Positions 24,012-26,959 of a DNA stretch of 28,700 nucleotides are shown here, one piece after another (positions within the stretch are counted from its first letter, which is position 1; each line of letters opens with the position of its first letter). The DNA is from a virus. A model generated the notes under the pieces. The model worked only from the letters and a program-made list of their open reading frames with translations, did no database searches and had not been told where the DNA came from. The position numbers and the translations under genes are program-made. Location of the stretch: IMG/VR virus record IMGVR_UViG_3300046517_001357, positions 1-28,700 of that record; one strand, written 5' to 3'.

Positions 24012-24583
24012 GCCACTACCGACTCAACGCATTCCGTGCCACAAACGAGAACGCCCCGGCGGGAACCGGGGCGAACTGTAACTGCATAACCGGCTTCGGG
24101 GTTGCACCCACCGAAGGGGAAGAAGCTGACGCCCCCTTCATAACGCAGCTCCGTCGCCTGAGCAAGGGAGCGCGTACCATGACCCGTAATCCATACCCAC
24201 TGGCGAAGGAACTCGCCCGCCCGGTGGCGCGCGGCTACCTGACACTCACCGAGGCCCACGTCGCCCTCCTGCACGCCGCCCTCGACGCCGTCGCCAACGG
24301 CTATCAGCCCCAGGACGTGCTCGGCATCTGGAAGCTGCAGCGCCACGTCCTCGGGCTGCACCTCGAAGATGAGGAAAGACGCAGGGATGTGGCATCGGCC
24401 CAGGTCAAACGCCGGGTGCGGCTGCAACTCACCCTCCGCAAGCCACGCAACGCCGTCCTGGCCGAGGCACACGATGTGAACGGCGCCGCCGGCTTTCCCC
24501 TCCTCGAGCCCGAAGTGAACGCCATCGCAGCCGCCGAACTGCTCTGGACACTGCCACGCGGAGGTCATCACCATGGCCGATGA
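24008..24583 (+). CDS. Early-operon protein, unknown function (start uncertain)
   Basis: ATG 24008 has a good GGAGG site 7 bases upstream and an ATGA overlap, giving 191 residues. The first 57 residues contain a Cys pair (NCNC), little recognisable structure, and overlie a GC hairpin. A second start at 24180 (GGGAG 8 bases upstream) gives 134 residues beginning MTRNPYPLAKELARPVARG, which looks more natural. The body is helical, with YLTLTEAHVALLHAALDAV and VLGIWKLQRHVLGLHLEDEERRR. It immediately precedes the RepA-like ATPase, overlapping it by 11 bases. The family is not recognised; a replication-accessory role is a guess. Confidence 0.6.
   Translation: MSHYRLNAFRATNENAPAGTGANCNCITGFGVAPTEGEEADAPFITQLRRLSKGARTMTRNPYPLAKELARPVARGYLTLTEAHVALLHAALDAVANGYQPQDVLGIWKLQRHVLGLHLEDEERRRDVASAQVKRRVRLQLTLRKPRNAVLAEAHDVNGAAGFPLLEPEVNAIAAAELLWTLPRGGHHHGR
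24052..24073 (+). other. GC-rich mRNA hairpin near the second start
   Basis: CGCCCCGG (24052-24059) pairs perfectly with CCGGGGCG (24066-24073) around a 6-base loop. It lies within the N-terminal part of the 24008 reading frame. It could restrain the first start or mark the segment as a leader; no T-run follows. Confidence 0.55.
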
Positions 24584-25946
24584 CGCGCTGCCAACCAACG
24601 CTTTCAGGCTGCCATCCCCTACCCCGACAGATAACCTCAGCCTCGCTGACGCTATGGCCGAAACCTATCGCGCGCTCGAGGAACGGAAGGCAGCGGAGCA
24701 GCGTCAGGATGAGCGGGTTGATCAGATTTTCGAGGCATACGAAAAGAATAAGCCGCTACTGACGGTCGTCAGCAGCAATGAAGAGCAGGAGACCCGCTCC
24801 CCCTTCGCCCTCCAACCCATCCGCATCATCGACCAACGCGCCATCAAGCACCGGCAATGGATCTATGGCCACCACCTCATCCGCGGCTTCGTCACCCTGC
24901 TCATCGCCCCAGGCGGCACCGGTAAATCCAGCCTCGTTCTGGGTATGTGCATGGCCCTCGCCACCAATCGCGCCCTGCTCGGCTCAACCATATTCCAGCA
25001 GTGTAACGTCGCCCTGCTCAACCTGGAAGACCCCCAAGACGAGATCGATCGCCGTGTCACCGCACTCGCCATGCGCTACGGCATCACCAACCAACACCTC
25101 GATGGCCGCCTGTTCGTCTCACCCGCCGGCCGCAACGTCCGCATCGCCGAGAACGGCCCAGACGGTTTCTCCATCGTCCATCCCGACGAAAAGCAGATCA
25201 TCGAGAAAGTACGGGACGAGCGCATCGGCGTCCTCGCCGTCGACCCGTTCGCTGAAAGCCACACGCTGGAGGAAAATTCAAACCCCGCCATGATCCAAGC
25301 CGCCGCAGCCTGGAGACGCGTCGCTCGCGCCGGCGGCTGCGCAGTCATGCTCACTCACCACGTCCGCAAAGGGCCCGTCGAGAGCATCGAGGCCGCGCGC
25401 GGCGCTAAAGCCCTCACCGACAGCGCACGCATCGGCCTGCTGCTGTCCACCATGACAGAGACCGAAGCCGAGGATCTCGGCATCGATCCAGAAACCAGGC
25501 TGCAATACGTCAGGCTGGACGACGCAAAAGCCAACATGGCCCCACGCGCCCCAAAAGCCTCCTGGTTCCATCTCAGCAACATCACCCTCGACAACGCCGA
25601 CGAAACCTATACCCACGGCGACCAGGTCGTCGTCATCGAGGCATGGCAGCCACCACAGGACGAACTCGCCACCGCACCCAACCACGACCTCAATACCGCC
25701 CTCGACGCCATCCGTGACGGACCCGAACCAGGCGTACTCTACACCGCAACCAAACGCGGCCAGTCCTCCGACCGCTGGTGCGGCAACGTCCTCTGCCAGA
25801 TGTTCAACACCTCAGAGAAACAGGCAGCCAAAATGGTCAGCGACTGGCTCAAATCCGGCACCCTCCGTGTCACAGAATACCGCCACCCAAAGTTCCGCAA
25901 AACCGTCCCAGGCGTCATCGTCAACGACACACTGAGACCATCATGA
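24573..25946 (+). CDS. RepA-like AAA ATPase / replicative helicase
   Basis: The start follows a GGAGG site 8 bases upstream. The 457 residues hold a RecA-like ATPase core. The Walker A loop is at 112-120 (APGGTGKSS with Lys118), a NLEDPQDEIDRRV segment follows, Walker B is at about 220-226 (VLAVDPF) and LTHHVRKG lies at 260-267. The family is AAA_25/RepA-like, as in RSF1010-type helicases and many phages. The N-terminal 80 residues are charged and coiled. The C-terminal region contains a helix-turn-helix-like part (DRWCGNVLCQMFNTSEKQAAKMVSDWL) that could bind DNA. It probably loads or drives replication from the adjacent repeat region. The next gene starts inside its stop. Confidence 0.85.
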   Translation: MADDALPTNAFRLPSPTPTDNLSLADAMAETYRALEERKAAEQRQDERVDQIFEAYEKNKPLLTVVSSNEEQETRSPFALQPIRIIDQRAIKHRQWIYGHHLIRGFVTLLIAPGGTGKSSLVLGMCMALATNRALLGSTIFQQCNVALLNLEDPQDEIDRRVTALAMRYGITNQHLDGRLFVSPAGRNVRIAENGPDGFSIVHPDEKQIIEKVRDERIGVLAVDPFAESHTLEENSNPAMIQAAAAWRRVARAGGCAVMLTHHVRKGPVESIEAARGAKALTDSARIGLLLSTMTETEAEDLGIDPETRLQYVRLDDAKANMAPRAPKASWFHLSNITLDNADETYTHGDQVVVIEAWQPPQDELATAPNHDLNTALDAIRDGPEPGVLYTATKRGQSSDRWCGNVLCQMFNTSEKQAAKMVSDWLKSGTLRVTEYRHPKFRKTVPGVIVNDTLRPS

Positions 25947-26203
25947 GTACTTTCCCACCAGACTTCGCCGTCGAGTTCGACCAGCAAATCTATCGCCCCA
26001 TCGGTTCGCGCCAGCATGTCACCCGTGATGGCAGGCAAACCACCCTCATCCAGTGGCTCACTCATTGCCCTTCCTGCGGTAGCGAGTTTACCATCAGCAC
26101 GAACATGCTGTTCAGCGCCCCTCGCCGGCGGTGCGACGACTGCAAATCACCCAACAGACAGGTCGCCACAGACCGCAAAACCTTCCTCACGACAACCCTA
26201 TGA
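25943..26203 (+). CDS. Small zinc-ribbon protein
   Basis: The 86-residue protein begins in the RepA-like stop (ATGA). The centre has CPSCGSEF and RRRCDDCK, two CxxC knuckles of a probable zinc ribbon. Basic and polar residues surround them. It may assist replication or regulation; the direct partner is unknown. It ends immediately before the repeat region. Confidence 0.7.
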   Translation: MSTFPPDFAVEFDQQIYRPIGSRQHVTRDGRQTTLIQWLTHCPSCGSEFTISTNMLFSAPRRRCDDCKSPNRQVATDRKTFLTTTL

Positions 26204-26206
26204 AGT

Positions 26207-26360
26207 GCGCCAATTCGAGATGTCTTCCCTTCAATTGGCGCGCAATTGGCGCAGCGGAGGACGGGGTGCGCCAATTTATGCCGGTAAACCGGCATTTAAA
26301 ATGGCGCAGCAGTCCCCCGGTCCATAGCTGGAATTGGCGCGGAATTGGCGCAATTGGCGC
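26207..26360. repeat. Iteron-like AATTGGCGC repeat block, candidate origin or control site
   Basis: Seven exact AATTGGCGC copies occur here: five forward (26233, 26244, 26332, 26343, 26352) and two reverse (26207-26215, 26268-26276). A degenerate forward copy lies at about 26299. Two forward pairs are 11 bp apart, about one helical turn. A near-palindrome ATGCCGGT-AA-ACCGGCAT (26278-26295) sits in the middle with AT-rich flanks. The block is non-coding and lies directly after the replication ATPase and zinc-ribbon genes. This fits a phage origin; control of the NusG-like gene downstream is the alternative. Confidence 0.7.
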
Positions 26361-26368
26361 ACCCAGCC

Positions 26369-26959
26369 ATGCCGCTTGACGCCAACCAGCCACAGTGCGT
26401 AGCTACACCCGAACCCGCACCCGGTGACCTCGGGTGCCGCGGCATTGCATCGCCCCGATGGGCCGTCGCACAAACCCACCCCCAAGCCGAGCACTTCGCC
26501 AACACCAACCTCCAGCGCTCCGGCTACCAAACCTACCTGCCCCTCCACACCGTCCAGCGCCGCGACCGAACCATCCCAACCATGACCCATCCCGTCGTCG
26601 TCCCGCTCTTCACCCGCTACCTGTTCGTGGCCCATGACAACCCAGACCTCTGGCGTCCCATTCGCGAAACCCCAGGCGTCGCTTCCGTGATCACCGCAGG
26701 AGGGAAAGTGCAGTACGCCAGGCCAGGCGCCGTCGAGGCCATACAGGCCGCTCAGGCGTTCGCCGCTACAGCCACCAGAAATGAGGCCCAATGGCACCCG
26801 GGCGACGCTGTGGCGCCTCGCGTTGGCCCGCTGATGGGACTGCCCGGCGTGGTGCTCGCAGCCGAGGGCGAAAACGCCACCGTCGGCATCCTCTTCCTCG
26901 GACAACTACGCGAGGTTGTCTACCCATTTGACGCACTTGTCGAGCGTCAGGATTACTAG
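26369..26959 (+). CDS. NusG-like antitermination factor
   Basis: ATG 26369 is used; an earlier TTG lies inside the repeat block. The 196 residues have a disordered start and then a NusG N-terminal domain from about residue 30 (RWAVAQTHPQAEHFANTNLQ, GYQTYLPLHTVQRRD, then PLFTRYLFV and VASVI). A short KOW-like C-terminal domain follows (HPGDAVAPRVGPLMGLPGVV, VGILFLGQLREVV). NusG/RfaH proteins bind RNA polymerase and reduce pausing or termination. In a phage this could be the switch for late transcription. Its promoter and leader overlap the AATTGGCGC repeats. Confidence 0.85.
   Translation: MPLDANQPQCVATPEPAPGDLGCRGIASPRWAVAQTHPQAEHFANTNLQRSGYQTYLPLHTVQRRDRTIPTMTHPVVVPLFTRYLFVAHDNPDLWRPIRETPGVASVITAGGKVQYARPGAVEAIQAAQAFAATATRNEAQWHPGDAVAPRVGPLMGLPGVVLAAEGENATVGILFLGQLREVVYPFDALVERQDY

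Follow-up and report, generated by a model that had tools for sequence, protein, structure and literature searches.

The window analysed here is the complete IMG/VR record IMGVR_UViG_3300046517_001357, a viral stretch of 28.7 kb. Its replication region comprises an ATPase gene (24573-25946, + strand), a zinc-ribbon gene (25943-26203, + strand), an array of short repeats (26207-26360) and a NusG-like gene (26369-26959, + strand). The earlier note, made from the sequence alone, had described these flanking genes in the same way, and its description holds, with a weak match for the zinc ribbon (Pfam Zn_ribbon_8, 0.0015, under the curated cut-off). A second record of 41,805 bases (L003/G001) contains an identical copy of the region and overlaps the window as a circular permutation, indicating a phage genome of ~41.8 kb that is circular or circularly permuted. 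A blastn search of the replication region against annotated phages returned zero matches. GC skew along the window and the 41.8 kb record is dominated near the array by the strand bias of the replication genes, and gives no clean origin position.

The array contains seven exact copies of the 9-mer AATTGGCGC within 154 bp, at the places where they had been noticed before, plus an eighth, near copy AAATGGCGC that had been overlooked. From left to right, these are the inverted iteron 1 (26207-26215, - strand), iterons 2 (26233-26241, + strand) and 3 (26244-26252, + strand), the inverted iteron 4 (26268-26276, - strand), the near copy as iteron 5 (26299-26307, + strand), and iterons 6 (26332-26340), 7 (26343-26351) and 8 (26352-26360), all on the + strand. 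The two pairs spaced by 11 bp that had been reported are present at 26233/26244 and 26332/26343, in addition to a third close spacing of 9 bp at 26343/26352. In the 28.7 kb window, all seven exact copies reside in the array, compared to a chance expectation of 0.67, and no shuffled sequence reached seven. The 41,805-base record has all seven copies at the same place and zero in its first 20 kb.

Further analysis confirmed the central near-palindrome, which is a perfect 8-bp hairpin, ATGCCGGT-AA-ACCGGCAT, at the center of the array (26278-26295). The hairpin forms the core of a larger imperfect inverted repeat (~26259-26323) that takes in the inverted iteron 4 as the left flank and the near copy, iteron 5, as the right flank. 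As single-stranded DNA, the array region folds far better than shuffled sequences, with z scores of -6.2 and -5.6. Searches of the array of the window for Rfam families, terminators and promoters were all negative.

The ATPase, of 457 residues, matches AAA_25 as its sole Pfam family (6e-37). A profile of the ATPase family searched against the PDB found one solved structure, the RSF1010 RepA helicase (PDB 1g8y, 2.6e-33), with only the motor aligned. The AlphaFold2 model has a pLDDT of 93 and a pTM of 0.85, from an alignment with two sequences left out, and structural similarity search using Foldseek revealed RSF1010 RepA (PDB 1olo, 1nlf and 1g8y) as the best matches, with E values of about 1e-15. 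That the motor is an RSF1010-RepA-like hexameric replicative helicase is well supported by knowledge of the family. The C-terminal ~90 residues (about 366-457, encoded by 25668-25943, + strand) are predicted to form a winged helix, in the order of three helices, a strand, a wing and a second strand (pLDDT 88.6). A Foldseek search with this domain returned winged-helix proteins as weak matches, the best having an E value of 0.016, and the sequence search against the PDB gave one marginal match, FeoC (0.005), so we do not assign the domain to a specific known reader family. No primase was identified among the window genes checked, and no primase domain is fused to the window helicase.

The zinc-ribbon gene is present in the relatives L029 and L030, but is missing between the ATPase and the array in L027, L031 and L032, in which the array directly follows the ATPase stop codon; it is therefore not essential to the module. 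As these three phages keep the array, the zinc ribbon was rejected as a required reader of the repeats. The NusG-like gene (PF02357, 9e-13; phrog_6386, "transcription antiterminator") most likely starts at the ATG at 26369. With the alternative start, a TTG at 26345, the coding sequence would run over the last two repeats. Just inside the gene lies a conserved promoter-like element, TTGACG followed after about 17 nt by GTAGCT or TTAGAT (26376-26405 in the window), which recurs in L003-L019 and L029-L031. It sits in the 5' end of the open reading frame, exactly where replication modules are exchanged, so that the promoter seems to overlap the coding start. Just inside the NusG-like paralogue genes of L020-L025, near their start, we observed the ten bases GCGGTAGCGT, which we take to match the RfaH ops element, possibly an autoregulatory recruitment site. 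In addition, the protein start RLNAFRATNENAPAGTGAN recurs upstream of several unrelated replication modules, at ~23944 in the window and in L044, L051 and L065.

The relatives were gathered as a NusG-like set, followed by an ATPase set of 121 members. With a significant array defined as a repeated 8-mer in at least four copies and with a shuffle p of at most 2/100, the 500 nt after the ATPase stop codon contain such an array in 84 of the 121 ATPase relatives, compared to 2 of 114 for the 500 nt upstream of the gene. The 8-mer test finds no significant array in the remaining 37, of which some (e.g. L033 and L075) have degenerate or three-copy versions and others none that is visible. By contrast, 74 arrays could be followed downstream for 2.5 kb or more, and only 14 of these have a NusG-like gene within 2.5 kb; the other 60 are without one. 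Together, the linkage to the ATPase and the rarity of a nearby NusG-like gene assign the array to the helicase.

In almost every close ATPase relative, the array lies immediately downstream of the ATPase gene and has a repeat specific to the lineage: TTATGGCG in L027 and L136, TTTGTGGCGC in L029-L032, L137, L139, L147, L149 and L158, GAATTGGCGC in L142, L153, L163 and L084, and GAATGGCGC in the Asaia/Acetobacteraceae group. More distant ATPase relatives have ACTGGAGC, GGTGACGC and other repeats. A search of the relatives for the exact 9-mer of the window, which the earlier note had proposed as a check, did not yield a conserved unit. Absence from relatives, which the note had named as speaking against its reading, is seen for the exact 9-mer only because the sequence is specific to the lineage; the place and the layout of the array are conserved.

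In the close relatives, the arrays cover ~135-170 bp and follow a common order. Direct iterons spaced by 11-12 bp come first, then an inverted iteron and a GC-rich hairpin, which marks the midpoint of the array; to the right of the hairpin follow a direct iteron and then more of them. An inverted iteron on the left and a direct iteron on the right of the hairpin are found in 44 of 75 arrays. The hairpin sequence varies between phages but the pairing is kept, with a median stem of 8 bp compared to 5 bp in shuffled sequences. The array of the window fits this family layout, as it spans 154 bp, has the hairpin at 0.52 of its length, and carries the expected inverted and direct iterons on the left and right, respectively.

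The same block of ATPase and array occurs on circular plasmids recorded for Methylobacterium and Rhodoplanes, both of which have phage genes within the stretch read, and the two Microvirga plasmids have the ATPase with weaker arrays (the four records are L073-L076; NZ_LR026982, NZ_AP024151, NZ_CP102848 and NZ_CP141051). These look like phage-plasmids, since tail or terminase genes occur in what was read of the Rhodoplanes and Methylobacterium records. Isolate versions of the helicase gene and array are present in Roseomonas aerilata DSM 19363 (L084) and R. nepalensis S9.3B (L090). A Microbispora MAG contig (L088), from an actinobacterial bin, carries a module of the Acetobacteraceae type and is probably mis-binned.

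The NusG-like relatives present a different picture. They share the region around the NusG start almost base for base, with exchanged content upstream. L004, L007 and L008 have another repeat, GCCGGACA, and the upstream gene, where visible (L007 and L008), encodes another AAA_25-type ATPase; L009 has GCCGGACA too, plus one more gene between. The initiators of L011/L012 and L014 are HTH proteins whose genes contain the repeats, and L006 and several other NusG-like relatives have no such array. Judged from these comparisons, the NusG-like gene is a constant anchor beside exchangeable replication modules and lies outside the origin.

Several of these alternative modules were observed in their own right. 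The second AAA_25-like ATPase family (L008, 3031-4970; L009, 2932-4700) has about 510-560 residues and a different C-terminus, along with its own iteron array of 8-9 copies of GCCGGACA around an AT-rich hairpin. L051 (3777-3970, AACCGGAC) and L065 (2652-2860, CCCGGCAA) are NusG-sharing phages with HTH initiators and in-gene iterons in the style of lambda O. In L044 (3427-3730), another probable replication gene is preceded by the alternating repeats GAGCGAGCC and GAGAGTGCC, with a spacing of about 45 nt.

We then compared repeat and protein across 76 non-redundant arrays from related viruses and prophages. With the similarity of the motors removed, iteron similarity tracks the winged helix (partial Mantel r 0.37, p 0.001, n=76); with the winged helix removed, it does not track the motor (r -0.04, p 0.76, n=76). 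Of all columns of the protein, G396 covaries most strongly with the repeat and S399 comes second, and both sit in a 13-residue loop of the winged helix (residues 390-402, YTATKRGQSSDRW, encoded by 25740-25778, + strand). In a nearest-neighbour prediction that excluded relatives of at least 60% motor identity, this loop gives the exact 5' (variable) half correctly for 47% of the arrays; the success rate is 15% with the motor, 13% with the remainder of the C-terminal domain and 7% with a random neighbour. The loop had been picked after the alignment was viewed; a sliding scan of all 13-residue segments, which addresses that choice, found it to be the best predictor, at 0.48 compared to a maximum of 0.23 and a median of 0.10 elsewhere (permutation p 0.0005).

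Natural swaps between closely related helicases display the same pattern. L156 differs from L149 and L158 (88-90% motor identity) in having RRG-DAT instead of RRH-PAT in the loop, with the repeat TTATGGCGCA instead of T(T)TGTGGCGCA. Similarly, L142 and L144 (92% motor identity) pair RRGRANARW with AATT and RRGGGARW with TTAT, respectively. On a 48-row motor tree, H396 occurs with TTTGTGGCGC only, in perfect association, and this pair needs four changes, of which at least three are forced by well supported branches. Moreover, the AATT repeat of the window and its loop, longer by one residue (KRGQSSDRW), recur together in L153, L142 and L163/L084, the motors of which are distant from that of the window. 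These findings suggest that the repeats are recognized by the helicase itself, through a short loop whose residues change together with the repeat sequence; on the evidence of covariation, the C-terminal DNA-binding domain would set the origin specificity. As a weaker lead, the wing residue K443 goes with GGCGC, and repeats in which the second G has changed show an enrichment of R, N or H at that position of the wing.

Altogether, the array has the hallmark of an iteron-type origin: several short direct repeats, spaced by about one turn of the helix and linked to a replication gene. We infer from sequence comparison that the array is very probably the replication origin of the phage, and that its initiator is the upstream IncQ-RepA-type helicase, which would bind the iterons by its own C-terminal winged helix. 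The earlier proposal of an iteron origin is strongly supported by the linkage to the helicase and the conserved layout.

Three other readings were weighed. The array could be an origin whose iterons are read by another protein, such as the zinc ribbon, a small phage DNA-binding protein or a host factor, with the helicase merely recruited. There is precedent in RSF1010, where RepC reads the iterons (PMC4234260) and recruits RepA, and linked genes can co-vary by shared ancestry. Nevertheless, we consider a separate reader improbable: the covariation maps to a single loop within the winged helix of the helicase itself and persists once motor relatedness is removed, L027, L031 and L032 keep their arrays without a zinc-ribbon gene in between, and a non-systematic look at other genes found none that is constant beside the arrays.

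Much less credible is the alternative of the earlier note, that the array is an operator or RNA element controlling the NusG-like gene or antitermination. The array does lie immediately upstream of that gene and its opposed copies fold well as a single strand, but it is not conserved with the NusG-like gene, as the 60 of 74 arrays without such a neighbour attest, and it matches no Rfam family, terminator or promoter. Most NusG relatives lack such an array or have another one; as those with another replication module either lack the array or carry a different repeat, a NusG/RfaH control element was rejected, although a secondary regulatory effect on the NusG-like gene may still exist. Direct-repeat arrays also act as centromere-like or packaging sites, so the ATPase might instead bind the array for partition or packaging. 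This, too, has very little probability, given that the linked protein is a replicative helicase by sequence and fold rather than a ParA/ParB or terminase protein, and that the block is an ATPase-linked feature on circular elements of differing phage content.

For the reading of the array as an origin recognized by its helicase, we propose the following process, in which the loading of rings and the priming are drawn from analogy. The winged helix would bind the 5' half of each 9-10 bp iteron via the loop 390-402. The iterons that flank the central inverted repeat, which are stacked at intervals of roughly one helical turn, would gather two sets of helicase subunits, from which two rings may assemble, facing each other across the hairpin. 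By analogy to ssiA and ssiB at the IncQ origin, unwinding from the center might then expose the hairpin arms as single strands for priming.

The module probably represents a widespread and apparently undescribed class of phage and phage-plasmid replicon, in which an IncQ-RepA-type helicase would recognize its origin by means of an acquired winged helix, following a natural code of protein-DNA specificity. The code, part of this same reading, would consist of the 13-residue loop and the variable half of the repeat, for which at least three independent joint changes are apparent (H396 with TTTGTGGCGC). If so, sequence alone would suffice to match origins to their initiators, and perhaps to re-target them. 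Few metagenomic phages have a known replication origin; in the present class, it would be findable by position, directly or shortly after the AAA_25 helicase gene, and the reader could be named in dozens of phages, prophages and phage-plasmids. The naturally evolved pairs of loop and repeat would make the evolution of origin specificity and the incompatibility of co-resident elements directly testable. We found no description of a RepA-type phage version of a self-reading helicase in the open-access literature, which is not proof of absence.

Compared to known systems, the module resembles the RSF1010/IncQ oriV in its homologous RepA helicase motor and in the iterons plus hairpins at the origin (PMC4234260, PDB 1g8y). 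However, IncQ uses a separate RepC to read the iterons and a RepA without a C-terminal winged helix, whereas the reader appears to be fused to the helicase in the window. A Pfam scan of nine neighbouring proteins found no RepC-like gene. As IncQ depends on a separate RepC, the module is not an IncQ replicon, despite a motor related by descent to RepA. IncQ also has a RepB primase, and its iterons are ~20 bp, unlike the 9-10 bp iterons of the window, which surround a single central hairpin.

The pRN1 protein ORF904 also has a C-terminal winged helix and an origin downstream of the replication gene, where a stem-loop structure is kept and its sequence varies (PMC4234260). It differs from the module of the window in lacking iterons, and in combining an archaeo-eukaryotic primase with an SF3 helicase. 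Lambda O is a phage initiator that binds iterons inside its own gene, and is not a helicase; the array of the window lies after the stop codons of the ATPase and zinc-ribbon genes rather than in a gene.

In SaPI Rep and SCCmec Cch2, the C-terminal domain of the helicase reads iterons directly downstream of its own gene (PMC7581432). The window would share this arrangement of a self-loading initiator helicase with short iterons directly downstream. The motors of SaPI Rep and Cch2 are of the DUF927 or D5/Primase_Cterm type, whereas that of the window is a RecA-fold relative of RSF1010 RepA, which places the helicase outside these protein families; in addition, the array of the window has a regular symmetry of iteron, hairpin and iteron around its center. 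Phage P4 alpha is one multifunctional protein that binds the origin repeats by a winged helix and then unwinds the DNA (PMC4234260). Unlike the window protein, alpha has a Toprim primase domain as well, and a helicase of another type. SaPI Rep/Cch2 and P4 alpha are the mechanistically nearest systems, and the IncQ-type RecA-fold helicase would be another kind of motor to use the solution of SaPIs and P4, in which a helicase reads its own origin.
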